Part shown: piece by piece, positions 12,615 through 51,205 of the stretch
Layout of the letters: each line of letters opens with the position of its first letter
Numbering within the stretch: position 1 is the first letter of the stretch
Assembly: GCF_030811455.1 (NCBI RefSeq)
Contig: NZ_JAUSQU010000001.1
Coordinates: forward strand, 10,044,001-10,108,000
Direction: 5' to 3'
From: Streptosporangium lutulentum
Lineage (GTDB): Bacteria > Actinomycetota > Actinomycetes > Streptosporangiales > Streptosporangiaceae
Length of the DNA stretch: 64,000 bases
Made by a program: the position numbers and the translations under genes
Notes under the pieces: generated by a model
Database searches by the model: none
The model's input: only the letters and a program-made list of their open reading frames with translations
Told to the model about the DNA's origin: nothing

Positions 12615-12704
12615 CGGGGCCGGCGGTTCCCGGATCCTCGGGTTTTCCCGGTTTCCCGCGGCCCCCGCGGCTCCCGTGGATGAGACGGGCGGTGTCCGGC
12701 GTGA

Positions 12705-16102
<3,398 letters not shown>

Positions 16103-21762: not shown

Positions 21763-22347
21763 TCACTCCTCGCCGAGATCGAGACGGACGATCCAGCGGT
21801 GTCGCCGGTCGCTCTTGGCCGAGGTCTTGAGAAGGCGGCGGAATCCGGCCCGCTCGAACATGCCGATGGTCCCGACGTAGGCGAGGGAGGGGTTGACCCG
21901 CCCGCCCTCGGGGTCGACGGGGTAGCCCTCGATGGCCGGTGCGCCGTACTTGCGGGCGTGCTCCACGGCACCCAGCAGGAGGGCCTCGGCGACGCCGCGG
22001 CGCCGGTGGGAGGCCCGGACGACGAAGCACACCACCGACCACACCGGGACGTCGTCGACCGGGGGAATGGTGCGCGAGCCGGTCAGGCGGTCCATCGCCG
22101 AGCGGGGTCCCACGTTGCACCAGCCGGCCACCTCGCCGTCCACGTAGGCCAGCAGTCCGGGCGGAGGGTCGCCGTCGACCAGGGCGCGCATGACGTCCCC
22201 CCGCTCGTCGGCGGTCCTGCTGTTGTACTCGGACGTGGTCAGGCGCCAGGCCAAGCACCAGCACGTCTGCCTGTTCTCGGTGGGGCACAGGACGGTGCGG
22301 AGATCGGCCCAGCGCTGCGCGGTTGCCGGGTGAATTTCGACGGGCAT
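21763..22347 (-). CDS. GNAT family N-acetyltransferase
   Basis: 194 residues. The acetyl-CoA pyrophosphate loop appears as VRASHRRRGVAEALLLGAVEH (R-R-x-G-x-A type), preceded by WSVVCFV and followed by a C-terminal YVGTIGMFERAGFRRL strand-helix typical of GNATs. The substrate is unknown. It is divergent from the DUF2461 gene with 32 bp between the starts, so the promoters overlap. Confidence 0.9.
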   Translation of the reverse strand: MPVEIHPATAQRWADLRTVLCPTENRQTCWCLAWRLTTSEYNSRTADERGDVMRALVDGDPPPGLLAYVDGEVAGWCNVGPRSAMDRLTGSRTIPPVDDVPVWSVVCFVVRASHRRRGVAEALLLGAVEHARKYGAPAIEGYPVDPEGGRVNPSLAYVGTIGMFERAGFRRLLKTSAKSDRRHRWIVRLDLGEE

Positions 22348-22379: not shown

Positions 22380-23024
22380 ATGAGTTTCTCTGGTTTCTCC
22401 CACGAGACCTTCGATTTTTACAGGAATCTGACGGCGGACAATTCCAAGGAATTCTGGAAGCGGAACAGGGAAATCTACGATCGGGCGGTCAGGACGCCGA
22501 TGGAGGAGCTCGCCGGGGAGCTGTCCGGGGAATTCGGCGAGGTGCAGGTGCTGCGTCCCCAGCGCGATTCGCGATTCTCCAACGACAAATCGCCTTATAA
22601 GACCTATCAGGGCGCCTATCTCGACATCGAGCCCTGTCTGGGCTACTGGGTTCAGATCGACGCCTCAGGCCTGTACGCCTCCGGCCGCTTCTACCCCTAC
22701 GACCCCGCGGAGGTCGTCCGCTATCGGGAGGCGGTAGACGCCGAGGGAAGCGGGACGGAACTGGCCGAGCTGGTGACGAGGCTGCGTGAGGAGGGGTTCG
22801 AGGTCGGGGGAGAGCGGCTCAAGACGCGTCCCCGGGGTGTGCCGGCGGACCATCCCCGGCTCGATCTGCTCCGGCACAGGAAGCTGGACGTCGGCCTGAC
22901 GCTCGCCGCCGGCCCGTCGCTCGGGTCGCCGGAGCCGCTCGACCGGGTCCGCTCGATCTGGCGCGAGGTGCGTCCCCTGCTCCGCTGGGTGTCGCAGCAC
23001 GTCCGGGCGCCGGACCGAGCCTGA
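22380..23024 (+). CDS. DUF2461 family protein
   Basis: 214 residues matching the DUF2461/TIGR02453 family: FSHETFDFYRNLTADNSKEF at the start, RDSRFSNDKSPYKTY near residue 62-76, and GRFYP later. Biochemical function is not established for the family. GGGAGG seven bases before the ATG supports the start. Confidence 0.9.
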   Translation: MSFSGFSHETFDFYRNLTADNSKEFWKRNREIYDRAVRTPMEELAGELSGEFGEVQVLRPQRDSRFSNDKSPYKTYQGAYLDIEPCLGYWVQIDASGLYASGRFYPYDPAEVVRYREAVDAEGSGTELAELVTRLREEGFEVGGERLKTRPRGVPADHPRLDLLRHRKLDVGLTLAAGPSLGSPEPLDRVRSIWREVRPLLRWVSQHVRAPDRA

Positions 23025-23291: not shown

Positions 23292-24104
23292 TCAGAAGGC
23301 CGAGGACGGGCCGGCCAGCGCCGGGACGAGCGGCCGGTTCCTTCGGCGGGTCAGGGAGGCGAGAATCCGCTCGGTGCGCTCCGCGGGCTCGGCGTCGAGG
23401 TCCTTGCTGAGACGGCGGCGGCACAGCTCGTACCAGTCCCTGGCTCTGCCCAGCTCACCCAGCTCGCCGTGGATCATCATCAGCGTCTGGTAGGTGTCCT
23501 CGTGGTAGGGGTCGAGGGCGATGATGCGCCGGCACCAGTGCATGGCCGCCGCCCAGTCCTCGCGCTCCAGGGAGTCGGCGCGCAGCACCGCCAGCGCCCG
23601 AAGCGCGAGGCCCTGCGCCCACTGGCGCTGCTCGTTGATCCAGTCACCGGTCTCGCTGGCCAGGAAGTCGCCGGTGTAGAGGTCGGCGGTGGTCTGGAAC
23701 CATTCGAGGGCGCGCTGGTGGTCCTTGAGGGCCCAGGCGTCCCGTGCCCTCTGGAAGGCCCGCTCGAACTCCTCCAGATCGACCCAGGCGTTCTGCGCCT
23801 GCAGCATGTATCCGTGGTCCTGATGGATCAGCCGGAACCCGTCGTCTCTGTCGTACGTTCCCAGGACGCGGCGTACGGCGTGAACCGCCACCTTGAGGGA
23901 GCTGGAGCTCCGGTCGTCGCTGTCGGGCCAGAGCACCTCGTGGAGCCGGTCGCGGTGGATCAACCGATCACGGTTGACCAGGAGATATTGGAAGAGTGCC
24001 CTGGCCTTACCCGCGCGCCAGTGGGCCACCGGCCGGCCGTTGATCTCCAGACGGAAGTTGCCCAGGCAGTGGACCGTCACGGCAGGCGTGGAATCCGTGA
24101 GCAT
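23292..24104 (-). CDS. SARP family transcriptional activator
   Basis: 270 residues with the SARP layout: N-terminal OmpR-like winged helix (FRLEINGRPVAHWRAGKARA to VAVHAVRRVLGTYDRDDGFR, about 15-95) and a bacterial transcriptional activation (BTAD) domain (about 105-250, for example DLYTGDFLASE and ALDPYHEDTYQTLMMIHGEL). SARPs activate antibiotic gene clusters by binding direct repeats at promoters. It sits at the left border of the peptide cluster, divergent from ubiA, so it is the best candidate for pathway-specific activator. Confidence 0.92.
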   Translation of the reverse strand: MLTDSTPAVTVHCLGNFRLEINGRPVAHWRAGKARALFQYLLVNRDRLIHRDRLHEVLWPDSDDRSSSSLKVAVHAVRRVLGTYDRDDGFRLIHQDHGYMLQAQNAWVDLEEFERAFQRARDAWALKDHQRALEWFQTTADLYTGDFLASETGDWINEQRQWAQGLALRALAVLRADSLEREDWAAAMHWCRRIIALDPYHEDTYQTLMMIHGELGELGRARDWYELCRRRLSKDLDAEPAERTERILASLTRRRNRPLVPALAGPSSAF

Positions 24105-24337: not shown

Positions 24338-25261
24338 ATGACGCAGCCGATGTACAAGGTCAACACAGGGATTCGACCGACGAGCGTGATCAACGGCCGG
24401 ACGGTACGACTGGCCTGGATCGAGGCTCGACCCGCGGTACAGGTGATCTTCCAGCTCCGACTGCTCGCCGGCGCGCTCATCGGCGCCGGAGCCCTGGCCG
24501 ACGTCTCGTGGAAGGTGATGGCGGTGGGAGCGGTCACCTGGCTCCTGCTGACCTGGTCGGCCTACCTGCTCAACGGCGCCGCCGACGTCGTCGAGGACGA
24601 GTCCAACGGCTCCACCCGCCCGATCGCCCGGGGCGACCTCGCCGCGATCACCGGGGGGCGGCTCGCCATCCTGCTCGCCGCCGTCGGGCTGACGCTGTCC
24701 GTGGCGGTGTCGGAGAGGTTCTTCCTCCTCGCGCTCCTCCTCCTTGTCCTCAGCTGGGCCTACTCGACCGGTCCCGCTCCCCTGAAGAACACCGTGGCGG
24801 GGGTGCAGGTGGCCGTCGTGGGCGCGGGGCTCGTCACCTACCTGGCGGGCATCAACGCGGCCGGCGTCCCCCTCGCCGACACCGTGCTGGTGTTCGCGGT
24901 CGCGATGTCGGCCTGGATGGGCATCGGCGGGCTCGCGAAGGACCTGTCCGACGTCGCGGGAGACCGGGCCGCGGGGCGGCACACCCTGCCGCTGCTGTGG
25001 GGTGAGCGCCGGGCCAAGCTGGCCATCGCGACCGCCGCGACGGCGGTGGGCGCGGCCTTCTTCCTCGCCGCGCTGACCGTCGCGCCCGGTCTCCTGTTCG
25101 TCGCGGGCCTGGTCCTCACCGGAAGCGTCGTCCTCGCCGTCGTCGCGCTCGGCCGGTGGAGCAAGGGAGACCGCGTGGCGCAGCGCCGGCCGTACCGTAT
25201 CTTCATGATCACCCAGTACTCGGGGCACCTGAGCGTCCTGTCGGAGCTCGTGATCCGGTAG
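24338..25261 (+). CDS. UbiA family prenyltransferase
   Basis: 307 residues with about eight membrane helices. Both prenyl diphosphate-binding motifs are present: NGAADVVEDESNGSTRP (NxxxDxxxD) and KDLSDVAGDRAAGRHTLP (DxxxDxxxD). UbiA enzymes transfer a prenyl chain to an aromatic acceptor in the membrane; some related members cyclise terpenes. TTGAGG precedes the ATG. Next to the SARP gene and an NRPS, it may decorate the cluster's aromatic (indole) unit, but it could also be housekeeping (menaquinone-type). A 64-bp palindrome starts at its stop codon. Confidence 0.9.
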   Translation: MTQPMYKVNTGIRPTSVINGRTVRLAWIEARPAVQVIFQLRLLAGALIGAGALADVSWKVMAVGAVTWLLLTWSAYLLNGAADVVEDESNGSTRPIARGDLAAITGGRLAILLAAVGLTLSVAVSERFFLLALLLLVLSWAYSTGPAPLKNTVAGVQVAVVGAGLVTYLAGINAAGVPLADTVLVFAVAMSAWMGIGGLAKDLSDVAGDRAAGRHTLPLLWGERRAKLAIATAATAVGAAFFLAALTVAPGLLFVAGLVLTGSVVLAVVALGRWSKGDRVAQRRPYRIFMITQYSGHLSVLSELVIR

Positions 25262-25534: not shown

Positions 25535-28084
25535 TTACGAGAGAACCGGCTCCTGTTCCTCGCTCAGGTCCATGACGAGCTCGGCCGCCTCCACCGCCGT
25601 CGCCCCGTGTACCGGGACGGAGGAGATGGCGGCGGCGAGATCCGCCGGGACGGGGTTGTCGAACACCTGCCGGAGCGGCACCTCGACGCCGAGCAGCTCC
25701 CTCAGGGCGTACGCCAGGCGGGTGCCGCTGAGGGAGTCGCCGCCGAGCCGCAGGAAGTTGCCGGTGCGCTCGACCGGCTCGCAGCCCAGCACGTCGCCCA
25801 TCAGCACGCCGATGACACGCTCGAGTGCGGTCCCGGGCACCTCGGCGTCCTCCGCGGGAGCCGTCCGGTCCGCCTGCGTCGTCTGTTCCGGCCCCGGCTT
25901 CGCGGAGACGGCCGGGCCGACGCCTCCGGCCCGCTCGATGAGCGTAAGCCGGTCGATCTTGCCGTTGCGGGTCAGGGGCAGCGTGTCGAGCACCTCGACC
26001 TTGGCCGGGACCATGTACGAGGGCAGCAGCTCCCGGAGACGGGTGCGCAGCTCGCGCGGGTCGGGACCGTCCTGCCCGACGACAAAGGCGTGCAGCCGGC
26101 GCACCCCCCACCCGCTGCGCGGCGCCACGACGACGGCCGCCTCGACCGAGGGCTGGTCCCGCAGGACCGTCTCGATCTCCCCCAGCTCGATCCGGTATCC
26201 CTGGATCTTCACCTGGTGGTCCTCGCGGCCCAGGATCTCGATGTTCCCGTCCGGGAGGTAACGCCCGAGGTCTCCGGTCAGGTACGCGCGGCCGCCCTCG
26301 GGGAGCGTCACGAACTGCGCCGCGGTCCGGTCGGGGTCGTCGAAGTAGCCGTGGGCCAGACCGACGTCGCTCACCACCGCCATCTGCCCGGGCGCCCAGA
26401 TCGGGCGCGGCCGCAGCTCGTCGTCCACGATGTGGTAGCGCTGGTTGGTGATCGGCTTGCCGTACGGAATGCTCGGCCAGGACGGGTCGACCTCCCCGAC
26501 GGGTGAGAACACCGACCAGCAGATCGTCTCCGTTGGCCCGCCCGAGCCCACGAACGTCAACGCGTCCGCCTGCGCGCGCAGACGGCCGGGAAGGGTGAGC
26601 GGGATCCAGTCGCCGGACAGCACGGCCAGGCGCAGCGTGGCGAGGGGGCGGTCGTCCCGGATCTCGGCCTGTCCGACGAGCATCTCCATGATCGCCGGGA
26701 CGGAGTTCCAGAGCGTCACGCTCTCCTCCCGCACCCGGTCGGTCCACCGGTCGGGCTGGGCACGCTCGAACGGGTCGGGCAGCACGACGGTGCCGCCTGC
26801 GGCCGGCACGCCGAACACGTCGTAGATCGACGCGTCGAAGTGCAGCCCCGAGATGCCGAACAGGCGGTCGTCCGGGCCGACGCCGAACCGGGCGTTGACA
26901 TCGGTGATCAGGTTCACCACGCCGAGGTGGTCCACCATCACGCCCTTGGGCTCGCCCGTCGACCCGGAGGTGAAGATGACGTAGGCGAGGTCGGTCGGGC
27001 GCTGGACGGAGGGGAGCGGGCCGTCGTCACCGGTCTCGAACTCCTCGTCGACCCGGTGCAGGACCACGCCGTCAGGCCAGGTCAGCCGCTCGGCCAGGCG
27101 CGACTGGGTCAGCACGTGGCGGACGTGCCCGCGCTCGATCAGGTGGGCCAGGCGCTCGGGTGGCACGGTGGCGTCGATCGGAAGGTAGGCCGCGCCCGAG
27201 GTGAGCACGCCGTACACGGCGGCGTACTGCTCCCAGCCCTTCTCCATGACGATCGCGACGAGATCGTTCGCGCGCACCCGGTCGCGCCGCAGGCGGCGGC
27301 CGATGCGGTGCGCGTAGCTCGACAGCTCGCCGTAGGTGAGCCGCCGCCGGCCGTCGACGACCGCCTCCGCGTCCGGCCGCTCGGCGGCCCGGGCGATGAC
27401 GATCTCGTGCAGCAGCGTGTCGGGGACGGGGCCGTCGGTCGCGTTCACCTCGTCGAGGATCGCGCGGTCGGCCTCGGGGACCACGTCCGGGCGCGTCTCC
27501 CGCCAGGCCGCCTCCTCGGTGGTCAGCCGCTCCAGCAGGGCGACCAGGGCGCCGGACATCGACGCGCACAGACCCCGTGGGAACGCCGTCCCTTCGGCCT
27601 CCCAGCGCAGGTACAGTCCCCCGTTCTCCTCGCGGAAGCCCAGGTCGAGCAGCGCGGGCTCCGGCACCTGCCCGGCCTCCAGCGCGCCGACGACCACCGG
27701 CGGGCCGCCGGTCTCGGTGAACGGCGCGGCGCCGGCCACGGCGCGGGCGATCGCCTGGTCGAGCTTGGCCGCCCGGACGCCGAACCGGTCGTCGGTGCGT
27801 GAGGCGACCACCGGAACGAGCCCCGTTCCGGGCGAGCGGTAGGCCAGGGTGAAGTGCGGGCTCTTGGACCAGCCCCGCAGCACCTCGGCGAACGCCGCCA
27901 CCAGCAGGGCCTGCGGGCGGGCACCGTGAACACGGGCGGCCTCGGCCAGCGCTTCCCAACGGTCGGGAGACAGCCGGTGCTCGTGCCGCTCGGCCGGGCC
28001 GGGCGAACGCGGACCCACCGCGGTGGGGAGATCCGGCGAAGACGGGAGCGCCAGTTGATCCGGCTCCTCGTACAGAGCGGTCAT
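25535..28084 (-). CDS. NRPS: partial cyclization-like domain, adenylation, thiolation
   Basis: 849 residues. The first about 200 resemble only the C-terminal half of a heterocyclization or condensation domain (ALLVAAFAEVLRGWSKSPHF); no HHxxxDG or DxxxxDxxS motif is present. A complete A domain follows: A3 YVIFTSGSTGEPKG, A4 FDASIYD, A5 GSGGPTET, A7 YLTGDL, and the A10 Lys in TRNGKID. Then comes a T domain with LGGDS (Ser about 784). By hand alignment the pocket residues read D-A-Y-N-V-S-S-C-W, closest in feel to Cys-type codes, but this is only a guess. The start at 28084 follows GGAGG; the ATG four codons upstream overlaps that site. Confidence 0.93.
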   Translation of the reverse strand: MTALYEEPDQLALPSSPDLPTAVGPRSPGPAERHEHRLSPDRWEALAEAARVHGARPQALLVAAFAEVLRGWSKSPHFTLAYRSPGTGLVPVVASRTDDRFGVRAAKLDQAIARAVAGAAPFTETGGPPVVVGALEAGQVPEPALLDLGFREENGGLYLRWEAEGTAFPRGLCASMSGALVALLERLTTEEAAWRETRPDVVPEADRAILDEVNATDGPVPDTLLHEIVIARAAERPDAEAVVDGRRRLTYGELSSYAHRIGRRLRRDRVRANDLVAIVMEKGWEQYAAVYGVLTSGAAYLPIDATVPPERLAHLIERGHVRHVLTQSRLAERLTWPDGVVLHRVDEEFETGDDGPLPSVQRPTDLAYVIFTSGSTGEPKGVMVDHLGVVNLITDVNARFGVGPDDRLFGISGLHFDASIYDVFGVPAAGGTVVLPDPFERAQPDRWTDRVREESVTLWNSVPAIMEMLVGQAEIRDDRPLATLRLAVLSGDWIPLTLPGRLRAQADALTFVGSGGPTETICWSVFSPVGEVDPSWPSIPYGKPITNQRYHIVDDELRPRPIWAPGQMAVVSDVGLAHGYFDDPDRTAAQFVTLPEGGRAYLTGDLGRYLPDGNIEILGREDHQVKIQGYRIELGEIETVLRDQPSVEAAVVVAPRSGWGVRRLHAFVVGQDGPDPRELRTRLRELLPSYMVPAKVEVLDTLPLTRNGKIDRLTLIERAGGVGPAVSAKPGPEQTTQADRTAPAEDAEVPGTALERVIGVLMGDVLGCEPVERTGNFLRLGGDSLSGTRLAYALRELLGVEVPLRQVFDNPVPADLAAAISSVPVHGATAVEAAELVMDLSEEQEPVLS

Positions 28085-28131
28085 GGAGTCCTCCATTCGA
28101 ATGACGTTGGCGCCGCGAATCTAAAGAAGGG

Positions 28132-28261: not shown

Positions 28262-29575
28262 ATGGCAAAGGCATCCCTCGGCCGACACGCCGATTTCAAT
28301 CGGCTGTGGGCCGGGCAGACGATCAGTAATTTCGGTGACAAGATCTCACTGCTGGCCCTTCCGACCATCGCGATCGTCACACTCGGGGGCGGTCCGATCG
28401 AGGTCGGCGTACTGGGAACCCTGCGGTTCCTCCCCTTCCTCCTTCTCGCCCCCCTCGCGGGGCTGGTCGCCGACCGGATCTCAAGACGGTCCATCATGAT
28501 CGCCGCTGATCTCGGACGCTTCCTGGCGCTCGCGACCATCCCGCTCGCCTTCATGTTCGACGCGGTCACGCTCACCCATCTCTACATCGTGGCCGCGGTC
28601 GTCGGTGTGCTCACGACGTTCTTCGAGGTCTCCTACCAGTCCTGGCTGCCACAGCTCATCGGCACCGAGAACCTGGTCGAGGGCAACACCAAGCTGCAGA
28701 TCAGCCGGAGCCTCGCCGAGGCCCTCGGCGCGGGCGCGGGCGGCGCGCTCATGCAGGTCCTGGGCGCTGCCAGGGCCGTCACGGTCGACGCGTTCACCTT
28801 CCTCGTCTCGCTGACAGCGCTGCTGCTCATCCGGCAGCGCGATGTCCGCGAGCGGGTCGAGGGCCAGAAGGCGTCAGCGGCGGCCGACATGAAGGAGGGC
28901 CTGCGCACGCTGTTCGGCACCCCGGTCCTGCGGAGCCTGTTCACCTCCAACGTCGTGGTCAACTTCGGCGCGGCCATCGGTGACGCGCTGATCCTGGTGT
29001 ACGCCTACAACGTGCTGGGCCTCAGCCCCGGTCAGGTCGGCATCGCCTGGGCCGTCATGGCCGTCTTCGTCATCGTCGGAGCGGTCCTGTCCGAGCAGGT
29101 CGCCAAGGTCTTCACCCTCGGCCGGACGCTGGTCCTCGTCGCGGTCGTCCTCGGCGCGGGCTACATCCTGGTCCCGTCGGCCGGCGCGATCGGCGGGTTC
29201 GCCGGCCTCCTCGTCATCCAGGCGGTCCTCGGGTTCGTCAGCCCGATCTTCGACATCCACGTGCTCAGCCTGGTGCAGGGCGTCACGCCGAACGAGCAGA
29301 TGGGCCGCGTCGGCGGCACCGCGCTCGCCGCGGTCTACGGCGCGCTGTCCATCGGCTACGCGGTCGGCGGCGTGCTCGGCGAGGCCATCGGCCTGACCGC
29401 CGGACTCATCCTGGCCGGTGCGATCATCGCTCTCGGCGGGCTCCTGCTGCTCTTCGGGCCTGTGATCGCGATTCGCGAGCAACCCTCGGGGGAGTCGCCG
29501 GAGGAGACCCCGGCGGACGGCTCCGAGACCCCGGCGGACGACTCCGAGCGCCCGGCGGCGACGATCGCGGGATGA
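28262..29575 (+). CDS. MFS transporter (drug efflux type)
   Basis: 437 residues, about twelve membrane helices. The N-terminus NRLWAGQTISNFGDKISLLA and the loop GLVADRISRRSIMI (MFS motif A-like) resemble MFS_3 exporters. The C-terminus is hydrophilic and Pro/Glu rich. It is divergent from the A-T synthetase gene and precedes the DNA glycosylase gene, which suggests export of the peptide product and thus self-protection. A hairpin with a T-tract follows. Confidence 0.92.
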   Translation: MAKASLGRHADFNRLWAGQTISNFGDKISLLALPTIAIVTLGGGPIEVGVLGTLRFLPFLLLAPLAGLVADRISRRSIMIAADLGRFLALATIPLAFMFDAVTLTHLYIVAAVVGVLTTFFEVSYQSWLPQLIGTENLVEGNTKLQISRSLAEALGAGAGGALMQVLGAARAVTVDAFTFLVSLTALLLIRQRDVRERVEGQKASAAADMKEGLRTLFGTPVLRSLFTSNVVVNFGAAIGDALILVYAYNVLGLSPGQVGIAWAVMAVFVIVGAVLSEQVAKVFTLGRTLVLVAVVLGAGYILVPSAGAIGGFAGLLVIQAVLGFVSPIFDIHVLSLVQGVTPNEQMGRVGGTALAAVYGALSIGYAVGGVLGEAIGLTAGLILAGAIIALGGLLLLFGPVIAIREQPSGESPEETPADGSETPADDSERPAATIAG

Positions 29576-29705: not shown

Positions 29706-30770
29706 TCAGGTCCAGAAGCGTGCGACGTCCGCCGTCTCGGCGGCGACCCCGGCCTGGATCTCGGGTGGGAGCGGCTCGAACGGCGTGACCTCGACGGCCG
29801 ACCGCCGTCTGGTCCAGGTGGCGACCGCACGCCCTTCCGCCAGCACGGTCGGGCGGATCTGGCCGCCTCCGGGCCACACGCGTCTTTCGTGAGAGGCGGG
29901 CACCGACAGGGCGCGTGTCCGGTAGCCCACGAGATAGTTGTCGTAGGAGGGGAGCAGCCGCACGTCGGGTGCCTCCTCCCGCGCCGGCTCCGCCAGGCGG
30001 GCCGGGGGCAGTGCGTACGCGCCGCCCTCGATCTCGACGGTGACGACGTCCTTGAGGGCGCGCCACCCGTTCCGGGCCAGTGGCACGGGCAGGCCCGACC
30101 ACGAGGCGAAGTCCTCGGCCGAGGCCGGGGCGTACGCGGCGAGATACCGGCGGGCCAGCTCGGCGACGGCCTCCTGGGCCGGGCGGCCGGGATCGCCGGC
30201 CGGCACCCAGTCGTCGAGGGTCACGAACGTCGCCTCGTCCTCGCGGGCCGGACCGTGGCAGATCCGCCCTCGCAGCGCGGCGCGGCGGATGAGGTGGAAG
30301 GGCGCCTGGCCGGACGGCTCCACCCCGATGCCCGCCAGCCGGGTCGTGAGGTCGGCGCGGGTGAGCGGACCCTCCGTGGACACGGCTTCGGTGATCAGGT
30401 CCTCGGCGCGGTCCTGGAGCCGTTCGTCCAGGCCGAGCTCGGCGTATCGGCGGCGGCTCGCCGCCAGGAAGATCGGTCCGAGGAGTCCGAGCAGCCATCT
30501 GACGTCGTGGGCCGCCACCGTGTGCAGCGTGCCGCGCATGAACCATCCGCGCACGACCGCGCGGTCGGCGTCGAACGCGCGGGAGACGTCGCGCCTGGTG
30601 ATCCCCGTACCGCGGACCCGGAGGCCGAGGGCCGCCGCGCCGGTGTCCTGGGCCTGTATCGCGAAGACGCGCTCGATGACCGCGGTCACACCGTCGTCTC
30701 GGACGCCGCCGGCCAATCCCTGCGCCCGGGCACGTAACAATCGGGCCCGCTCGGGGGTGATGATCGGCAT
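29706..30770 (-). CDS. AlkZ-like winged-helix DNA glycosylase (HTH_42 family)
   Basis: 354 residues of the HTH_42/YcaQ-AlkZ superfamily. The signature IQAQD places the catalytic QxQ motif at Gln39-Ala40-Gln41, matching the Gln-x-Gln described for AlkZ, which unhooks azinomycin adducts. Further typical parts are GWFMRGTLHTVAAHDVRWL, and DVRLLPSYDNYLVGYRTRAL near residue 265. Members coded inside biosynthetic clusters often give self-resistance to DNA-alkylating products. Here it lies between the exporter and a two-component pair inside the NRPS cluster. It could instead be general repair. The ribosome site is weak (GGTGAAG). Confidence 0.88.
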   Translation of the reverse strand: MPIITPERARLLRARAQGLAGGVRDDGVTAVIERVFAIQAQDTGAAALGLRVRGTGITRRDVSRAFDADRAVVRGWFMRGTLHTVAAHDVRWLLGLLGPIFLAASRRRYAELGLDERLQDRAEDLITEAVSTEGPLTRADLTTRLAGIGVEPSGQAPFHLIRRAALRGRICHGPAREDEATFVTLDDWVPAGDPGRPAQEAVAELARRYLAAYAPASAEDFASWSGLPVPLARNGWRALKDVVTVEIEGGAYALPPARLAEPAREEAPDVRLLPSYDNYLVGYRTRALSVPASHERRVWPGGGQIRPTVLAEGRAVATWTRRRSAVEVTPFEPLPPEIQAGVAAETADVARFWT

Positions 30771-30866
30771 GAGACTTCACCCTAGTGGGACCCGCCGAGA
30801 TCAACCAGATCATTTATGATCATGTAGGGTTTTTACTTCCTGCATGTGTCTGTTTTCGGCATTGTT

Positions 30867-30997: not shown

Positions 30998-32164
30998 ATG
31001 GCGCTGCGCGGCGATGGCGAGCATGCCGATGAGGAAATGATCGGTTACGACAGGGATGCTGTTCGTGCGGAGGTGGTGGAGTCCTACCGGTCGCGTCTGC
31101 GCTCCGTGGGAAGCATCGCGCTGAGCGAGGAGGCCGTGGTCGAGCAACTCGTCCAGCAGGCGAGCCTGGTCGTCGACGACGTTCTGTCCCAGTTCTATGG
31201 AATCCTCTTCGAGGACGTCATATCGCTGCCCCTCAGCATGGAGATCGGCGCGACCCGCGCGGAGCAGGGCGTGCATCCGACGCAGTCGCTCCTCGCGGCG
31301 GCGCTGATGTTCGAGGCGGCCTTCCCGATCCTCGCCCGAAGGCTCGCCGACGACCTCGACCAGGAGAAGACGATCACCATCGGCCTGGACCTGCAGCGTT
31401 CCATCATGGTGCGGCTCGCCGTCGGGTCGGTGCCCTACGTCAACTTCCTGCTCGCCAAGCTGCTCTCGGCCTACCAGGACGAGCGCCACCGGATCGCGCG
31501 GGACCTCCACGACCGGATCGCCCACGGGATGGGAGTGGCGCTGCAGCAGCTCGACCTGTTCGAGTTCTACCGGGACGACCCCGAGCGCGCGGCCGGCAAC
31601 GTGGCGATCGCCCGGGAGGCGATCCGCGAGGGACTGCGGGGCACCCGGCAGCTCTCGGCGGACCTCTGGGAACGGGTCGGCGACGACAGCCTGGAGGTCG
31701 CGCTCGGCAAATACCTGCGGACCACGGTGCCACGCTCCACCCGGACCACCCTGACGACGTTCGGCGACGAGACGGATCTTCCCTGGGAGGTCAGGGAGGA
31801 GCTCTACATCCTGCTCAGGGAGGCGGTGCGCAACGCCCTGCTGCACTCGGGCACCACGGAGATACACGTGGAGCTGGAGGGGGCGGACGGCGTGCTGCGC
31901 GCGGCGGTCAGCGACCGCGGATGCGGGTTCGACGTGGTGGCGACGCGACAGGCGCGCAGAGGCGGGGGACTGACGTCGATGCGGGAGCGGGCCGCGCTGC
32001 TCGGTGGGACCGTCAACCTGTCGAGCCGGGTGGGAGAGGGAACCACGGTCGAGGTCCTGGTGCCGCTGGCGGAAGATCCGGGACTGGGCCCGTGGAACGG
32101 ATGGGGGGCGAGAAGTGACGCCACAGACGGGGGAGGAACGCGTGACGTTGACCGATCCGGATGA
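30998..32164 (+). CDS. Soluble NarL-type sensor histidine kinase
   Basis: 388 residues with no membrane helix. A helical sensing region (1-155) leads to the HisKA_3 dimerisation box ERHRIARDLHDRIAHGMG with phospho-acceptor His171, then an HATPase domain with NALLHSG, DRGCGFD and GGGLTSMRERA. Such kinases phosphorylate the adjacent LuxR-type regulator. The ATG at 30998 is preferred; an upstream TTG is possible. The gene ends inside the response regulator gene (23-bp overlap). Because it lies inside the cluster it may control it. Confidence 0.88.
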   Translation: MALRGDGEHADEEMIGYDRDAVRAEVVESYRSRLRSVGSIALSEEAVVEQLVQQASLVVDDVLSQFYGILFEDVISLPLSMEIGATRAEQGVHPTQSLLAAALMFEAAFPILARRLADDLDQEKTITIGLDLQRSIMVRLAVGSVPYVNFLLAKLLSAYQDERHRIARDLHDRIAHGMGVALQQLDLFEFYRDDPERAAGNVAIAREAIREGLRGTRQLSADLWERVGDDSLEVALGKYLRTTVPRSTRTTLTTFGDETDLPWEVREELYILLREAVRNALLHSGTTEIHVELEGADGVLRAAVSDRGCGFDVVATRQARRGGGLTSMRERAALLGGTVNLSSRVGEGTTVEVLVPLAEDPGLGPWNGWGARSDATDGGGTRDVDRSG

Positions 32165-32831
32165 GCGGCGCATCAGGGTGATGCTCGCCGACGACCACAC
32201 CCTGTTCCGTGACGGCCTGGCGGAGCTGATCCAGACGGATCCCGCCTTCGAGGTCGTGGGACAGGCGGCCGACGGCGACAAGATCATCGAACTGGTGCCG
32301 ATCATGCGGCCGGACATCGTCATCGTGGACGTCGAGATGCCGGGACCGGGCGCCCGGGCGGTCGTCAGCACGCTGAGGCGGGTCTGCCCCGAGGCGACGG
32401 TGATCGTCCTGACCATGCACCAGAACGCCAGGATCGTGCAGGAACTGCTCGACTGCGGGGCGGCGGCCTACCTGGTCAAGAACATCGCCCGTGACCAGCT
32501 GATCGCCGCCCTGCACGCCGTGCACCAGAGCCCGCGCAACATCCTGCTGTCGGTGTCGCGCGAGACCCTGGGGCACGGGGAGCCGGCCGCGGGGGACCGG
32601 CCGTTGTCGGCGCGGGAGATGGAGGTGCTGCGGCTCACCGCCGACGCCTACTCCAACTCCCAGATCGCGACCAGGCTCGGCATCACCGAGGCCACGGTGA
32701 AACGGCACCTGTCCAACATCTACGCCAAGCTCGGCGCCGTCTCCCGCGTGGACTCGGTCCGTAAGGCGATGGCCGCCCGGCTCATCAACCCGGCGATCGA
32801 CTCAGGCCGGAACGGCGGGCGTCCGGGCTGA
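32142..32831 (+). CDS. NarL/FixJ-type response regulator
   Basis: 229 residues: receiver domain (acidic pair ADD near 16-18, phospho-acceptor Asp63 in IVIVDVEMPG, Lys in YLVKNI) and a C-terminal LuxR HTH (LSAREMEVLRLTADAYSNSQ then IATRLGITEATVKRHLSN). The start is GTG at 32142, set by GGAGG five bases upstream, so translation is coupled to the overlapping kinase gene. It is a likely local regulator of the halogenase/peptide cluster. Confidence 0.92.
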   Translation: MTLTDPDERRIRVMLADDHTLFRDGLAELIQTDPAFEVVGQAADGDKIIELVPIMRPDIVIVDVEMPGPGARAVVSTLRRVCPEATVIVLTMHQNARIVQELLDCGAAAYLVKNIARDQLIAALHAVHQSPRNILLSVSRETLGHGEPAAGDRPLSAREMEVLRLTADAYSNSQIATRLGITEATVKRHLSNIYAKLGAVSRVDSVRKAMAARLINPAIDSGRNGGRPG

Positions 32832-32952: not shown

Positions 32953-34545
32953 TCACTTGCCGTGCAACTGCCGGAGGAACTCGTAGTTGCTCGGCAGCGA
33001 GGCCAGCAGCTCCCGCTGCTCCTGCTTGACGTCGGCGAACAGCGCCTGCGCCTGCTCGATCGACCGTTCCTTGTAGGTGAGCGAGGGAAGCGGCTGGTCG
33101 GGCAGGCAGCCCAGGCCGGCGAAGATGCAGTAGTAGCTGCCGTTCGTCCAGAAGTTGCGGAACTCGGCCTCGAAGTTGCCGTAGTAGTTGTTCTCGTCCG
33201 TGATGGGCTGGTTGATGGGGAGCCCGGCCTTGTAGGTGGCCATCTTCTCCTTGATGTTCTCGGTCAGGTGCAGCTCCTTGTTGGCCTTCCAGAACGGGGT
33301 GTCCACGCGCGGGGAGAAGTAGAAGTGCGCCTGGAGGAAGTCCCGGGTGTCGTCGAACATCTCCTCGATCTCACGGTTGAACCTGTCGATGAGGGTGGCG
33401 TTGAACCCCTTGTCGGGGAAGTGCTTGGAGAGCTGGAAGATCGCGGCGTAGGTGAAGTAGATGCCGGTGGACTCCAGCGGCTCCAGGAAGCACGAGGCCA
33501 GGCCTATGCTGACGACGTTCTTCACCCAGGCGCGGCGGTTGCGGCCCACCCGGAAGCGAATGTGGTTGAAGGACGTGTTCTCGGGGTCGAGGTTCCACAG
33601 CCGGGCGAAGTCGGAGGTCGCCTCGTCCTTGGAGGCGAACTCGCTGCTGTAGACGTAACCGCTGCCGAAGCGGCCCAGCATCGGGATCTTCCACGCCCAT
33701 CCCGAGGGCATCGCGATGGCCGAGGTGTACGGCTCGACCCCGTTCGCCTCGTCGTCGTGGGGAACGGCGGTCGCGACGGCGCTGTCGTTGATCAGGTGGT
33801 CGCTCATGTCGATGAACGGCTCCGCCATGGTCTTGTTGATGAGCAGGCTGCGGAAACCCGAGCAGTCGATGAACAGGTCGCCTTCGAGCGTGAGGCCGCC
33901 CTTCGTCCGCAGGGCCGTGACGAAGCCGCGTTCGTCGAGGACGGCCTCCGTCATCTCGTCCTGGACGTGCGTGACGCCCTGCTTGCCGGTGGCGAAGCGC
34001 CGCAGGAAGTCGGCGACCAGATGGGCGTCGAAGTGCCAGGCGTAGGCGGTCGAGCGCCGCCCGTCCAGCCAGCGCGGCGACAGGTTGGCGTCCATCAGGG
34101 GAGGCTCGCGGAAGCACGCGTAGTCGAACGGCTCGTCGGTGCGGCCGTTGTGGACGTTGTTGTACCAGTAGTGCGACAGGGGGATCCGGTCGTGATCGCG
34201 CAGGATTCCGAACGGGTGGTAGAACTGGTCCTTCCCGCCGCCTTCCAGCGTCTTGGGGGTGCCCGAACCCTCGCCGGGCGAACGCCAGTTGACGAACTTG
34301 ACCGCCATCTTGAAGCTCGCGTTGCACTCGGGCATCCACTCCTCCTCGGGGATGCCCAGGACGTCGAAGAAGGCGCGCTGCAGGTTCGGCACGGTCGCCT
34401 CGCCCACACCGATCTTCGGAATCGTGGGGGCCTCCAGGACAGTGATCCGCACGCTGCCCTGGAGCACCTTGCCGAGGTAACTGGCGGCCATCCATCCCGC
34501 CGTGCCTCCGCCGAGGATGACCACGTTATTGATGCGGTGATTCAC
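32953..34545 (-). CDS. Flavin-dependent tryptophan halogenase
   Basis: 530 residues. The FAD-binding GGGTAGW is at 12-18, the catalytic Lys79 lies in [11 protein letters not shown] (same number as in PrnA/RebH), the halogenase motif WAWKIP is at 283-288 and the active-site segment LEPLESTG is at 354-361. The family uses FADH2, O2 and halide to make HOCl that is guided to the indole ring. Regiochemistry (C5, C6 or C7) cannot be assigned by eye. The reduced flavin is probably supplied by the reductase at 50516. GTG start with GGAGG seven bases upstream. Confidence 0.97.
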
Positions 34546-34758: not shown

Positions 34759-36261
34759 ATGACCGCGACCCTGTCCGACACCGGCACGACCCCCCGGCCG
34801 GCGCCGCTCGGCCACCGTGAGGCGCTGTGGATCGGCGGCCGGTGGACACCGCCGATCACCGATGAGAGGTTCACGGTCCTCGACCCCGCGCGGGAGGAGG
34901 TCATCGGCAGCGTGCCCGCGGGCACCGCCGAGGAGGCGCGGCGGGCCGTGGAGGCCGCGGCCGCCGCCTTCCCCGGCTGGGCGGCCCTGCCGCTGGAGGC
35001 CAGGCTGCGCCCTCTGCGGAAGCTGCTGGAGCTCATGGAGGCCGAGGCGGACATCCTGGCCGACACGATCACCCGCGAGGTGGGCATGCCCCGCCACCTG
35101 GTCCGCGGCGTGCAGGTCGAGTTCGCCCTCGGGCTGCTCCGCTCCTACCTCGACGCGCTCCCCGATCATCCCTTCGAACAGTGGGTGGGCGGATCCCTGG
35201 TCCTGCGCGAGCCCGTCGGCGTCGTCGCCTGCATCACACCGTGGAACGTCCCGCTGCTGCTCGTCATGCAGAAGCTGGTGCCCGCGCTGGCGGTGGGGTG
35301 CACCGTCGTGCTCAAGCCCAGCGAGATCACGCCGCTCAACACCTTCCGCCTGGTCGACCTGCTCGCCGAGTGCGACCTGCCTCCGGGCGTGGTCAACCTC
35401 GTCAGCGGGTCCGGTCCGGTCATCGGGTCGGTCCTGGCCGCGCACCCCGCCATCGCGATGGTGTCCCTGACCGGTTCGCAGCGCGCCGGGCGGCACGTCT
35501 CCGGGCTCGCCGCCGAAACCGTCAAACGGGTGCACCTGGAGCTCGGGGGCAAGAGCGCCAACGTCGTCCTGGAGGACGCCGACCTCGAGACGGCCGTGGG
35601 CGCCGGAATCCGTCAGGCGTGCTTCAACTCGGGTCAGGCCTGCCTGGCCTGGAGCCGCCTCCTCGTCCCGGGATCCCGGTACGAGGAGGCGGTGGCGATC
35701 GCCGCCGCGACCGCGGACTCCCTCGGGGTGGGCGACCCGTTCGACGCTCGCAACGACCTGGGCCCGCTGGTCTCCGAGACCGCGCGGGCACGGGTGCGCG
35801 ACTACATCCGGCTCGGGGAGCAGGAGGGCGCCCGGCTCGTCGCCGGCGGAGCCCAGGCTCCCGAGGGACTGGACCGCGGTTTCTACGTCCGTCCCACCGT
35901 CTTCGCCGACGTGCACAACGGGATGAGGATCGCCCGGGAGGAGATCTTCGGGCCGGTCACGGTGCTGATCCCCTACGAGGACGAGGCCGACGCGGTCCGG
36001 ATCGCCAACGACAGCGACTACGGCCTGCACGGCGCCGTGTGGTCGGCCTCGACGGAGCGGGCGCTGGCGGTCGCCCGCCGGATCCGCACCGGAAGGATCG
36101 ACGTGAACGGGGCGCCGTTCAACCTGCTCGCGCCGTTCGGCGGTTACAAGCACTCGGGCAACGGGCGCGAGCTGGGCACCTGGGGCCTGGAGGCGTTCTG
36201 CGAGGTCAAGGCGGTGCAGGTCGGCGCGGGCCCGGTGCAGGTCGACCTCGGCGCCCGCTGA
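34759..36261 (+). CDS. NAD(P)+-dependent aldehyde dehydrogenase
   Basis: 500 residues. Catalytic features of the ALDH superfamily are present: TPWN with Asn163, general base Glu261 in LELGGKSANV and nucleophile Cys295 in FNSGQACLAWSR; the coenzyme loop LTGSQRAG is near residue 238. Such enzymes oxidise aldehydes to acids. Divergent from the halogenase and sharing a repeat-bearing promoter, it could oxidise an indole-3-carbaldehyde intermediate to the acid. That substrate is inference. AGGAGA precedes the ATG. Confidence 0.94.
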   Translation: MTATLSDTGTTPRPAPLGHREALWIGGRWTPPITDERFTVLDPAREEVIGSVPAGTAEEARRAVEAAAAAFPGWAALPLEARLRPLRKLLELMEAEADILADTITREVGMPRHLVRGVQVEFALGLLRSYLDALPDHPFEQWVGGSLVLREPVGVVACITPWNVPLLLVMQKLVPALAVGCTVVLKPSEITPLNTFRLVDLLAECDLPPGVVNLVSGSGPVIGSVLAAHPAIAMVSLTGSQRAGRHVSGLAAETVKRVHLELGGKSANVVLEDADLETAVGAGIRQACFNSGQACLAWSRLLVPGSRYEEAVAIAAATADSLGVGDPFDARNDLGPLVSETARARVRDYIRLGEQEGARLVAGGAQAPEGLDRGFYVRPTVFADVHNGMRIAREEIFGPVTVLIPYEDEADAVRIANDSDYGLHGAVWSASTERALAVARRIRTGRIDVNGAPFNLLAPFGGYKHSGNGRELGTWGLEAFCEVKAVQVGAGPVQVDLGAR

Positions 36262-36399: not shown

Positions 36400-37500
36400 T
36401 CAGTACGTGCCCGCGGCGGTTTCCCAGAGCAGGGTCGGCCGGCCGCCGCGCAGCGCCTCCCAGGCGACCCGCCGGTAGCAGGAGGCCACGACGGAGTCGC
36501 GGGCCAGCCCGGACGCGCCGTGCAGGTGCACGGCCTCACGGGTGACGTCCAGGGCCGTCTCCGCGGTCAGGGCGAGGAGCCCGGCCGCGTCCGACGATCC
36601 CAGCGCCCCCTTGTCCAGGGACTTGGCGGCGTCGGCGACGGCCCAGCGGATGGCGTCCAGCCGGGCCAGCAGTCCCGCGACCCGCAGCCGGGGCGCCTGG
36701 TGCTTCACCAGCGACTGACCGAACTGCTGGCGGCTGCGGATCCGCTCCACCACCGCCGTGAGCGTGGCCGCGGCCAGTCCGGTCAGGAGCGCGGCCTGGT
36801 AGACCGCCACGCGCAGGCCCACGCGGGCCAGCGCCTGCTCCGCCTCATGACCTCGAAGGAGCACCGACTCCTCGGAGACGCGCACGTCGGTGAGAACCGC
36901 CGACGCGGTCGGCCCACCGCCCCGGTCGGCCAGTTCGCGCAGCTCCACGCCGGTGGCGGGCAGGGTGACGAGGCTCGCCTCGGGACCCTGCCCGGTCTCG
37001 GTGAGCAGCAACAGGGCGCCCGGCTGGACCCCCACGGAGAAGGGGCCCGCGGTGCCGGACAGCAGGCCGCGGCCCCCGGCCGGATCCGCCCGCCACTCCA
37101 GGCCGGTGGACAGGCACCCGGCGAGGCCCGGAAGCCGGCCGGGGATCGGGACCGGCAACTCGCCCGTCCTGACCTGGTCGAGCAGGCCGGGGTGGGTGGA
37201 CGAGGCGGAGAGCAGGTCCAGGGTGACGAGCGTGCCGAGCAGGGGCAGCGGCTGCGTCGAGCAGCCGACCTCCTCGCACAGCATGCTCACCACGGCGTGC
37301 CCCAGCTCCAGTCCGCCGCGGTCCAGCGGTACCCCGAAATCCCAGGCGCCGACGTCGGTCAGCGCGTCCCACGCCTGCTTGGGGCTCCCGCCGCTGTCGC
37401 GTAACGTCTGCCGCACGGTCAGGCGGAGCTGGCGGAAGAGCGGATCCTCCTCCTCCCAGTCGGTCCACCACTCGCCGGTCATCGGTTCCATCGTGGTCAC
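36400..37500 (-). CDS. Acyl-CoA dehydrogenase-like protein, divergent
   Basis: 366 residues with the acyl-CoA dehydrogenase fold in divergent form. The N-terminal helical part (TDVGAWDFGVPLDRGGLELG) and C-terminal helices (RIRSRQQFGQSLVKHQAPRL, RVAWEALRGG) are typical. The flavin-binding SEP-type strand and the C-terminal catalytic-region GGTSE-like motif are not seen. It may be a non-catalytic or altered partner of the second acyl-CoA dehydrogenase next to it. GTG start with GGGGGAGG upstream. Last gene of the operon. Confidence 0.85.
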   Translation of the reverse strand: MTTMEPMTGEWWTDWEEEDPLFRQLRLTVRQTLRDSGGSPKQAWDALTDVGAWDFGVPLDRGGLELGHAVVSMLCEEVGCSTQPLPLLGTLVTLDLLSASSTHPGLLDQVRTGELPVPIPGRLPGLAGCLSTGLEWRADPAGGRGLLSGTAGPFSVGVQPGALLLLTETGQGPEASLVTLPATGVELRELADRGGGPTASAVLTDVRVSEESVLLRGHEAEQALARVGLRVAVYQAALLTGLAAATLTAVVERIRSRQQFGQSLVKHQAPRLRVAGLLARLDAIRWAVADAAKSLDKGALGSSDAAGLLALTAETALDVTREAVHLHGASGLARDSVVASCYRRVAWEALRGGRPTLLWETAAGTY

Positions 37501-37549: not shown

Positions 37550-38677
37550 TCACGGCCGTACCTCCACCCCGGAGTCGAGACGTAGCCGGGCCAGCGTCTC
37601 GAGCATCATTTCCGAGGTCCCGCCCGAGATCCGCATTCCCGGCGCCTCGCGTGCCGCCACGTCGAGGGGATCGGCGATCCCGTCCTCCTCCGCGATCATC
37701 GCCCGGTCGCCGCCGCGTTCGGCGGCCCACCAGGCGATCTCGGCGGCCAGTTCGGTGGTGTACCACTTCGCCGCCGCCGCCTCGTCCTCGTTGAGCTCAC
37801 CCCGGTCCAGCCGGGTCAGGACCCGCCGGACCAGCGTGCCCGCCGCGACGAGACGGGTGTTGAGCCGGGCCAGGCCGATCGCGTCGTGCTGCGTGAACTC
37901 GTCCCGCATCCGCTCCGTGGCGGCGCGGTGCCAGCGCAGCGCCTTGACGTAGTAGTCCAGACCGGTCCGCTCGTAGGCCAGGGTCTTGACGACGATGGCC
38001 CAGCCCTGGCCGGGATCGCCCACGACGTCCTCGGCGCCCACCGTCACGCCGTTCAGCGTGACCTCGTGGAAGTTGTCGTCCATCAGGGCCGGGATCGGCT
38101 CGATGCCGACCCCCTCGCCGGTGAGGGGGACGAGGAACAGGGTCAGCGCGTCGTTGTCGTCGCGGGCCAGGCAGAGGGCCGAGTCGGCGAGTTTGGCGAA
38201 GATCGAGTGCGTCTTGGTGCCGTACAGCCGGTAGCCGTCGCCGTGGCGGGCCGCCCGGGTGGACAGCACCGAAAGGTCCGATCCCGCCTGCGGTTCGCTG
38301 AACAGCACGCAGCCGTAGGAGGTGCCCGCGGCGAAGCCGGGCAGGTGCCTGGCCCGCATCTCCGGGCCGGCGCAGTTCAGCAGCGTCGTGCCGACGATCG
38401 ACACGGTCAGCGTGTGCAGCAGGTCCGGGACGTCGTGCATGGCCAGTTCCTCGACCAGTACGGCGGCGGTCACGTGGCTCACGCCCCGGCCGCCGTACTC
38501 CACGGGCCACTGCGGCGCGAGCAGCCCCGCGCGGCCCAGTGCCCGGTGGATCGGCCGAGGATCACGCCGCCGCCGGGCCTCGGCGATCGGCGCCGTGGCG
38601 AGGATCTCGCGGATCTCGTCGCGCAGTGCCCGCACCGGCGCCTCGCTGTGCTCCCACAGGAGTTCAGACGTGAGCAT
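37550..38677 (-). CDS. Acyl-CoA dehydrogenase
   Basis: 375 residues. Family features seen are VLFSEPQAGSDLS (flavin and substrate strand), RLYGTKTHSIF, and C-terminal MRISGGTSEMMLETLARLRL. It would oxidise an acyl thioester to an enoyl product with FAD. In this operon, which codes NRPS condensation enzymes, the substrate could be an acyl-CoA or carrier-protein-bound unit. The start ATG has AGGAGG four bases upstream. The partner at 36400 may form a heteromer with it. Confidence 0.92.
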   Translation of the reverse strand: MLTSELLWEHSEAPVRALRDEIREILATAPIAEARRRRDPRPIHRALGRAGLLAPQWPVEYGGRGVSHVTAAVLVEELAMHDVPDLLHTLTVSIVGTTLLNCAGPEMRARHLPGFAAGTSYGCVLFSEPQAGSDLSVLSTRAARHGDGYRLYGTKTHSIFAKLADSALCLARDDNDALTLFLVPLTGEGVGIEPIPALMDDNFHEVTLNGVTVGAEDVVGDPGQGWAIVVKTLAYERTGLDYYVKALRWHRAATERMRDEFTQHDAIGLARLNTRLVAAGTLVRRVLTRLDRGELNEDEAAAAKWYTTELAAEIAWWAAERGGDRAMIAEEDGIADPLDVAAREAPGMRISGGTSEMMLETLARLRLDSGVEVRP

Positions 38678-47598: not shown

Positions 47599-48933
47599 TC
47601 AGTGGTCGTAGCCGGGCATGGGGAATGTCCGGCACAGCCGGGCGACGGCGGCGCGGATGTCGTCGCGGGCCGCCGCCGGAAGCCGGTAGTCCACGTCGCC
47701 GAGCTGCTCCACGGCCTCGACGGCCCCGCAGAAGAGGTCGGCGCAGGCGGCCATGTCGCCGGGCTCCATGCCGCGCAGCGCGAGCGTGTTGGTGCCGAGA
47801 CGGACACCGGAGGTGACGTGGGCCGGTTTGGTGTCGCCGACGATGCGGTTCTTGTTGACGATGATCCCGCACTCCTCCAGCGCCCTCTCGACGACGACGC
47901 CGGTGTGGCCCTTGGCCCCCACGTCGATGAGGACGAGGTGGTTGTCGGTCCCGCCGGTGATCAGGTTCTGGCCGCGGTCCACCAGCTCCATCGCGAGCTT
48001 CCCGGCGTCCAGGCGCAGGCGCAGGGCGAGCTCCCGGAAGGCGCCGGTGGAGGCGGCGGCGAACGCCCGGGCCTTGGCCGCCACCGCCGCGAGGTCGGGC
48101 GTGCCCTGGGCCCGGGGGAAGACCGCCCGCTGCAGCGTGCCCGCCAGCGTCCCCCGCCCGTTGAGGCCGGGCCGGTCGGCGTCCGGGCCGGACAGGATGA
48201 GGCCGCCGCGCGGCCCGTAGAGCTGCTTGTAGGTGCTGGTGGTGGTCACGTGGGCGTGCGGGACCGGACTCTGGTGCTCGCCGGCCACGACCAGCCCGGC
48301 GATGTGGGAGATGTCCGCCAGCAGCCAGGCGCCCACCTCGTCGGCGATCTCCCGGAACCGGGCGAAGTCGATGGCGCGCGGGTAGGAGCTCGCGCCGCAG
48401 ACGATCAGCTTGGGCCGGCTGCGCCGGGCCAGCTCGGCGACCTCGTGGTAGTCGATGAAGCCGTCGGGGCCCACCCCGTAGCCCACCGTGCGGAAGTACC
48501 TTCCGGTGACCGACGCCGGGGACCCGTGGGTGAGGTGCCCGCCGGCGTCCAGGTCCATGCCCAGCACGGTGTCACCGGGCTCCAGCAGGGCGAACAGCAC
48601 CGCGAGATTCGCGGAGCTGCCCGAGTGGGGCTGAACGTTGGCGTAGGCGGCGCCGAACAGCTCGCGCGCCCGTGCCACCGCCAGCCGCTCGACGTCGTCG
48701 ACCACCTCGCAGCCCGCGTGGAAGCGGGCGCCCGGGTAGCCCTCCGTCGTCACGTTCGCCAGCGCGCTGCCGGCGCAGGCCAGCACCGAGGGCGGCGCGG
48801 TGCTGCAGGCGGCCACCATCGCCAGGGTGTCGGTCTGGCGGCGCAGCTCGCGTTCCAGCAGGAGGAAGATCTCGGGATCCTCGGCGGCCAGGCTCTCCGC
48901 GGCGCGCCGGTGAAATTCGGCCAACCGGACCAT
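47599..48933 (-). CDS. SHMT-like PLP enzyme with altered active site
   Basis: 444 residues, fold type I. ANVQPHSGSSAN, GHLTHGSP, ADISHIAGL (Asp207, His210) and GPRGG are as in serine hydroxymethyltransferase, and the PLP lysine is Lys236. The region before it reads VTTTSTYK instead of VTTTTHK, so the conserved His is Tyr. The usual SEN near residue 43 is ACS, and KYAEGYPG is VTTEGYPG. The conserved Glu of EGY is kept. First gene of the NRPS operon, it may form an unusual serine analogue or cleave a beta-hydroxy amino acid. It is not a safe housekeeping glyA. Confidence 0.9.
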   Translation of the reverse strand: MVRLAEFHRRAAESLAAEDPEIFLLLERELRRQTDTLAMVAACSTAPPSVLACAGSALANVTTEGYPGARFHAGCEVVDDVERLAVARARELFGAAYANVQPHSGSSANLAVLFALLEPGDTVLGMDLDAGGHLTHGSPASVTGRYFRTVGYGVGPDGFIDYHEVAELARRSRPKLIVCGASSYPRAIDFARFREIADEVGAWLLADISHIAGLVVAGEHQSPVPHAHVTTTSTYKQLYGPRGGLILSGPDADRPGLNGRGTLAGTLQRAVFPRAQGTPDLAAVAAKARAFAAASTGAFRELALRLRLDAGKLAMELVDRGQNLITGGTDNHLVLIDVGAKGHTGVVVERALEECGIIVNKNRIVGDTKPAHVTSGVRLGTNTLALRGMEPGDMAACADLFCGAVEAVEQLGDVDYRLPAAARDDIRAAVARLCRTFPMPGYDH

Positions 48934-50515: not shown

Positions 50516-51205
50516 ATGCCTACCACTCCTCATGTCGCCGTGCTGAGCGGCGCGTTGAACGCCGACTCGCGCACGGAACGACTGGCCCGCTGGTGCGCCG
50601 GGGAATGCGTTTCGAGGGGCGCCACCGCCACCCTCTTCCGGGGCGCCGAGCTGGACTTCCCGTTCTACGGGAAGGCCGGCCTCCACGGTCCCCACGTGAT
50701 CCGCTTCCTGGACGACCTGGCACGCGCCGACGGCATCGTGCTGGTGACGCCCTCCTACCACGGCAGCGTGTCGGGCCTGCTCAAGAACGCCCTGGACTAC
50801 GTCAACGAGCTGGCCGCCGACGAGCGCCCCTTCTTCGACGAGAGAGCGGTGGGATGCGTCGCCCTGGCGGGCGGGGAGCAGGGGGCGGCCGCGACCCTGG
50901 CCACCATGCGCGCCATCGTGCACGCCATGCGAGGGTGGCCGACACCGCTGGGCGTCGGCGTGACCACGGCCTCCCTGCAGGACGGCGACGCCGCTCCCAC
51001 GGACGAGCGCACGAGGCGGCAGCTCGACCTCATGCTCGACCAGGTGCTGTTCCTGGGCTTCACGATGCGGAGGCTCTGGCCCGAGGACGCCGAGCCGGAC
51101 GCCGCGGAGACACCGGACGCCCTGAGCGTCCTGGCCGGCCCCTCCCTCGGGGGCTCGGAGCCGTACCGGCACTCCTGGTCGCAGCCTTCCTCGCGCTCGG
51201 TCTGA
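50516..51205 (+). CDS. NADPH-dependent FMN reductase family flavin reductase
   Basis: 229 residues of the flavodoxin-like NADPH-dependent FMN reductase family: a flavin-phosphate loop in the LSGALNADSRTERLARW segment, and the TPSYHGSVSGLLKNALDYVN signature. It probably supplies reduced flavin to the halogenase at 32953. Its C-terminal part (after about 175) is low complexity. The stop lies within one copy of an imperfect 33-bp direct repeat. AGGAGCGAAA precedes the ATG. Confidence 0.9.
   Translation: MPTTPHVAVLSGALNADSRTERLARWCAGECVSRGATATLFRGAELDFPFYGKAGLHGPHVIRFLDDLARADGIVLVTPSYHGSVSGLLKNALDYVNELAADERPFFDERAVGCVALAGGEQGAAATLATMRAIVHAMRGWPTPLGVGVTTASLQDGDAAPTDERTRRQLDLMLDQVLFLGFTMRRLWPEDAEPDAAETPDALSVLAGPSLGGSEPYRHSWSQPSSRSV

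Follow-up and report, generated by a model that had tools for sequence, protein, structure and literature searches.

Does the alkZ-like gene that lies among nonribosomal peptide synthetase (NRPS) and halogenase genes in a 64 kb stretch of a Streptosporangiaceae genome (hereafter, the window) protect its host from the product of that cluster? Cluster-borne self-protection by AlkZ-like (AZL) proteins has precedents in HedH4, TxnU2/U4, LldU1/U5, and AlkZ (PMC9040887, PMC8934636). The tambromycin and JBIR-34/35 clusters are also known already to carry AZL genes: Bradley et al. 2022, who described them, listed the compounds as being of unknown function and proposed either that they are genotoxic or that the AZL proteins act outside DNA repair (PMC9040887). 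On balance, we lean towards alkZ encoding an accessory DNA glycosylase that protects the host from a product of the tambromycin family. What is new here is the linkage of alkZ to this cluster type, a lone alkZ copy in Planomonospora sp. ID82291, purifying selection on the gene, and three separate positions of cluster-borne copies in the alkZ tree.

The alkZ product matched the Pfam AlkZ-like profile (PF06224) with 220.8 bits (cut-off 25.9) from profile position 1 to 329 of 329, that is, across the whole protein; NCBIfam gave no matching model. Its only significant PDB sequence match was AlkZ of Streptomyces sahachiroi (5uuj; residues 28-351, E 1.9e-23). The same structure, with its three winged helices and beta-barrel, ranked first in a Foldseek search (TMq 0.84, E 2.4e-20) with an AlphaFold2 model built from a 43-sequence alignment (pLDDT 95.6), followed by AlkX/YcaQ (9zd6; TM 0.71). 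As the first-pass annotation had claimed from the IQAQ at residues 38-41, I38-Q39-A40-Q41 aligned without gaps to VQAQ of AlkZ, and Q39 and Q41 were invariant across the 43 aligned sequences. The motif is of the (Q/H)xQ type, unlike the QxD of the YcaQ/AlkX (YQL) general repair glycosylases, which share a likeness in fold but are not cluster-borne and are more distant from the alkZ product in both fold and sequence. Judged by profile, motif, and modelled fold, the protein is a member of the AZL subfamily of HTH_42 and a predicted glycosylase; a YcaQ-type general repair enzyme was ruled out because motif and fold are nearer to AlkZ.

Family name and motif alone are weak evidence for a role in the cluster, because PF06224 genes are common in the host genome (four full genes and one fragment) and (Q/H)xQ marks the whole AlkZ-like clade, ~43% of Streptomyces members (PMC9040887). 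Congeners likewise carried one to nine matches to the alkZ product each, so that PF06224 proteins are common in the group. The best matches in 15 congeners were 39-43% identical; none of these genomes has a close ortholog, so alkZ does not belong to the genus's core set of repair genes.

The linkage of alkZ to the cluster, by contrast, is kept in Streptosporangiaceae, Frankia, and Streptomyces, beyond what chance would give. An order-level census of 347 genomes, based on halogenase orthologs and then synteny, recovered the full cluster in three: the window, P. parontospora, and a further Streptosporangiaceae genome, G226. With acyl-CoA dehydrogenase as the marker, 11 of 393 Streptomyces genomes were positive, and all 11 carried an alkZ ortholog on the marker's contig, 11-13 kb from it. 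An ortholog was also present in Frankia canadensis (located via the SHMT gene), where it adjoins a different NRPS in a locus that looks like a mosaic with a chloroindole part. Taken together, alkZ was present in 14 of these 15 tambromycin-type clusters located by other marker genes, G226 being the exception. A separate named scan found 17 Streptomyces loci with alkZ adjoining an MFS gene in a tambromycin-type cluster; these may overlap the 11 and were left out of the 14/15 count. We also observed that related alkZ genes in F. canadensis, S. hygroscopicus, and S. malaysiense share a different NRPS and MFS beside them (L180, L213, L218).

Such retention with one cluster type is as a self-resistance gene would behave, and this part of the first-pass reading is borne out. 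Its description of the surroundings also holds: the MFS exporter adjoins alkZ in the window, in P. parontospora (88%), and in Streptomyces clusters (74-78%), a two-component pair (HK/RR) lies beside alkZ, and NRPS, halogenase, and tailoring genes occur on both sides. The idea that alkZ lies beside the cluster by chance alone could draw on the commonness of PF06224 genes in the group and on the G226 cluster, but linkage kept across three families together with the kept alkZ-MFS adjacency makes this exceedingly unlikely, and pure chance was ruled out on the former ground. In the complete G226 cluster, neither alkZ nor a remnant lay between the HK and MFS genes, and nothing closer than 39% was found elsewhere in that genome, so alkZ is not indispensable. 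The halogenase and ALDH genes of G226 are inverted relative to the window (C54, L118-L120).

The first-pass annotation had also stated that the remaining genes do not reveal a genotoxic product; in our analysis, they do reveal the product class (tambromycin/JBIR-34 family). All five adenylation codes were identical between the window cluster and the Streptomyces clusters of G687 and G889, and the four codes compared in Streptomyces sp. H27-S2 (L199) agreed with the window save for one residue in one code; codes were used for cluster matching, and substrates are given as rough hints only. The NRPS cluster of S. antarcticus H27-S2 is 96% similar to the JBIR-126/tambromycin cluster (PMC12451607). 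Matching codes and this link place the window cluster in the tambromycin family, with which it shares the halogenase, SHMT, Cy domain, P450, ALDH, acyl-CoA dehydrogenases, MFS exporter, and alkZ. Based on these gene-level matches, the cluster very probably makes a tambromycin-like peptide.

The window cluster differs from the tambromycin (BGC0001368) and JBIR-34/35 clusters, whose AZL proteins share PF06224 and QxQ and whose type agrees by adenylation codes and gene content, in several respects. Its host belongs to Streptosporangiaceae rather than Streptomyces, and it adds the HK/RR pair, UbiA, MbtH-A, and FMN reductase genes (Table 1). The full tambromycin/JBIR-34 gene set was not found in the 64 kb window: the 4'-phosphopantetheinyl transferase (PPTase) and the Beta_elim_lyase-family enzyme known from Streptomyces tambromycin-type clusters had no tblastn match there at E 1e-6. 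Some tambromycin producers also lack the PPTase (PMC8466323). The UbiA gene had no homologue in G687, G889, or Frankia. Adenylation domains for aryl acids lack Asp235, as does that of A-T-Cy-MT, and an aryl-acid starter is therefore likely. The truncated adenylation domain of the MbtH fusion is fast-changing (50-61% between species). Elsewhere in the window (11757-15089), a LytB (IspH) gene adjoins one for a 778-aa protein that contains two terpene synthase stretches.

Table 1 Features of the alkZ locus and its host cluster, in window coordinates.
Feature	Position	Strand	Remarks
GNAT acetyltransferase, kept with cluster	21763..22347	minus	Pfam; 66% to Streptomyces cluster protein
DUF2461 protein, kept with cluster	22380..23024	plus	54-63% in G687, Frankia, G226
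BTAD (SARP-type) regulator, kept with cluster	23292..24104	minus	
UbiA prenyltransferase	24386..25261	plus	Present in Streptosporangiaceae clusters compared
NRPS A-T	25535..28096	minus	853 aa; code DAYNVSSCW
MFS exporter	28262..29575	plus	Pfam MFS_1; downstream neighbour of alkZ
alkZ ORF (AZL, PF06224/HTH_42)	29706..30770	minus	ATG start; 354 aa; motif Q39-A40-Q41
TAGGGT, -10-like box	30779..30784	minus	8 nt before alkZ ATG; cccacTAGGGTgaagtctcATG
Sensor histidine kinase (HK)	30998..32164	plus	
LuxR-type response regulator (RR)	32181..32831	plus	
Flavin-dependent (Trp_halogenase family) halogenase	32953..34545	minus	72-74% in Streptomyces clusters
Aldehyde dehydrogenase (ALDH)	34759..36261	plus	
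Acyl-CoA dehydrogenase-like 1	36400..37500	minus	
Acyl-CoA dehydrogenase 2	37550..38677	minus	Marker for AlkZ-independent census
Stand-alone condensation domain	38689..40128	minus	
NRPS C-A-T	40125..43385	minus	Code DVFESGGVA
NRPS C-A-T-TE	43473..47531	minus	Code DMYNFGLIH
SHMT-family enzyme	47599..48933	minus	63-64% in tambromycin-type clusters; probably alpha-methylserine synthase
MbtH fused to truncated adenylation domain	49205..50440	plus	
NADPH-dependent FMN reductase	50540..51205	plus	Likely halogenase partner
A-T didomain	51555..53348	plus	Code DGWLVAVIA; predicted Trp-like specificity
Free thioesterase	53345..54097	plus	
Cytochrome P450	54309..55529	plus	
A-T-Cy-MT	55586..60094	plus	Cy motif DFLISD; A domain without Asp235

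With regard to the history of alkZ itself, cluster-borne copies occupied three places within one 49-row clade (99/96) that also holds stand-alone copies, with at least five changes between the two labels. Outgroup rows formed long branches, and the deep branching order was not used for conclusions. The expectation that cluster-borne members would form a clade of their own was not borne out, and some of their close relatives are stand-alone genes at other sites. Rough dN/dS estimates (Nei-Gojobori) were 0.16-0.26 for Streptomyces pairs and 0.49 between the window and P. parontospora; among 14 genes compared for the latter pair, alkZ had the highest value. The gene is under purifying selection. 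This selection, the QxQ invariant in 43 sequences, and the modelled fold nearest to AlkZ all argue against a non-catalytic role in DNA binding or regulation. Such a role, which we consider very improbable, would accord with the possibility put forward by Bradley et al. 2022 that the AZL proteins of the tambromycin and JBIR clusters act outside DNA repair. Between cluster and stand-alone copies, residues around the putative lesion-recognition helix differed to no greater extent than those elsewhere in the protein, and cluster-specific divergence of that region was ruled out for want of such a signal.

Many alkZ copies exist outside any such cluster. Among these relatives of 54-63%, seven adjoin an alpha/beta hydrolase and a WYL regulator as a conserved trio. 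Stand-alone copies of Kitasatospora sp. Root107, Streptomyces sp. ISL-100, and S. adustus are split over two frames (L220, L229, L230) and look decayed. In another genome, G322, two AlkZ-like genes (L067:7283 and 9454) are separated by a single acyl-CoA thioesterase-like gene.

Planomonospora sp. ID82291 provides a further copy of this kind, an intact alkZ with 86% identity to the P. parontospora gene, at a locus from which the cluster is absent. The lone gene lies at L177:9983-11115 (also L065:8270-9349), a site at which its congener has the whole cluster. On one flank the match to P. parontospora C19 runs as far as the end of A-T-Cy-MT, and the other flank matches C26 at 37.1-37.6 and 52.5-55.4 kb; the match to the cluster itself consists only of alkZ with about 20-60 bp around it. 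Both the window and P. parontospora carry alkZ within the cluster, and in the tree the Planomonospora copies pair as sisters (100/100). The simplest reading is therefore that ID82291 lost the cluster but kept alkZ; the reverse order is less likely. The first-pass annotation had named alkZ in the same place in relatives without the NRPS genes as evidence against its proposal. Such a relative does literally exist in ID82291, but cluster loss explains it better.

The retained piece in ID82291 starts at the CCACTAGGGT sequence, and CCACTAGGGTGGG, where homology at this locus begins, is kept in both Planomonospora species. Given its position, the TAGGGT box is a probable leaderless promoter of alkZ. 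In the two Streptomyces clusters analysed in full, alkZ lies behind the PPTase gene with a spacing that fits one operon; the window gene appears to have its own leaderless promoter, whereas the Streptomyces copies look operonic.

It is conceivable, if rather unlikely in our view, that alkZ encodes an AlkZ-like glycosylase for general repair (or a stress protein), carried along with the cluster in some lineages but not product-specific. WYL proteins are often responsive to DNA damage, and a WYL-domain regulator beside one subclade, the many non-cluster copies in the 49-row clade, a putative lesion-recognition region that is not specially diverged, the intact gene of ID82291, and the alkZ-free cluster of G226 would all be consistent with such a role. 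It fits less well with the 14/15 linkage, the operon-like position in Streptomyces clusters, and the absence of a close ortholog from all 15 congeners.

Under the self-protection reading that we favour, the mechanism that we infer would begin with the chlorinated indole/oxazoline peptide, as such or in a reactive form, making purine adducts (probably at guanine N7) in the DNA of the producer. The three winged-helix fold would grip the lesion, and Gln39 and Gln41 would position water at C1', so that the adducted base is released by a monofunctional glycosylase. The ordinary AP-endonuclease pathway would complete repair, and the adjacent MFS pump would export the product. This would resemble HedH4, TxnU2/U4, and LldU1/U5, likewise cluster-borne AZL proteins, for which excision of adducts of the own cluster's product is demonstrated, whereas the activity of the window protein is a prediction; their products carry reactive epoxides. 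AlkZ of S. sahachiroi shares its fold, QxQ, and position in a biosynthetic cluster with the alkZ product at 26% identity (structural alignment), but the product of its cluster, azinomycin B, is a bifunctional DNA cross-linker and the predicted window product has no known DNA-alkylating activity. The literature examined holds no report of DNA damage by tambromycin or JBIR-34.

The lack of reported DNA-alkylating activity of tambromycin in that literature would also suit a different source of damage, namely a reactive biosynthetic intermediate (e.g., an indole aldehyde or activated hydroxy-chloroindole) rather than the exported product. An aldehyde route from tryptophan is predicted (A-T, P450, TE, ALDH), and the Beta_elim_lyase-family enzyme of the Streptomyces and Frankia clusters is aldolase-like. 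Nonetheless, we consider this improbable: characterised AlkZ-like enzymes act on adducts of finished products (PMC9040887, PMC8934636), and the five-gene cassette ALDH-halogenase-A-T-TE-P450, which recurs outside tambromycin-type clusters in G166 (L121-L122) and G177 (L125), had no alkZ match within the 40 kb examined.

The near-constant linkage of alkZ makes a protective role more likely for the tambromycin family. More tentatively, chloroindole-oxazoline peptides of this family may be, or become, covalent DNA modifiers, with alkZ encoding the matching adduct-specific glycosylase. No DNA alkylation is known from this chemical class; if the proposal is true, Planomonospora sp. ID82291 would be a former producer that keeps only the immunity gene. 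The cluster without alkZ in G226 and the alkZ at the lost-cluster site in ID82291 are natural comparisons for DNA damage by this peptide family, and are the most useful new leads from our analysis.
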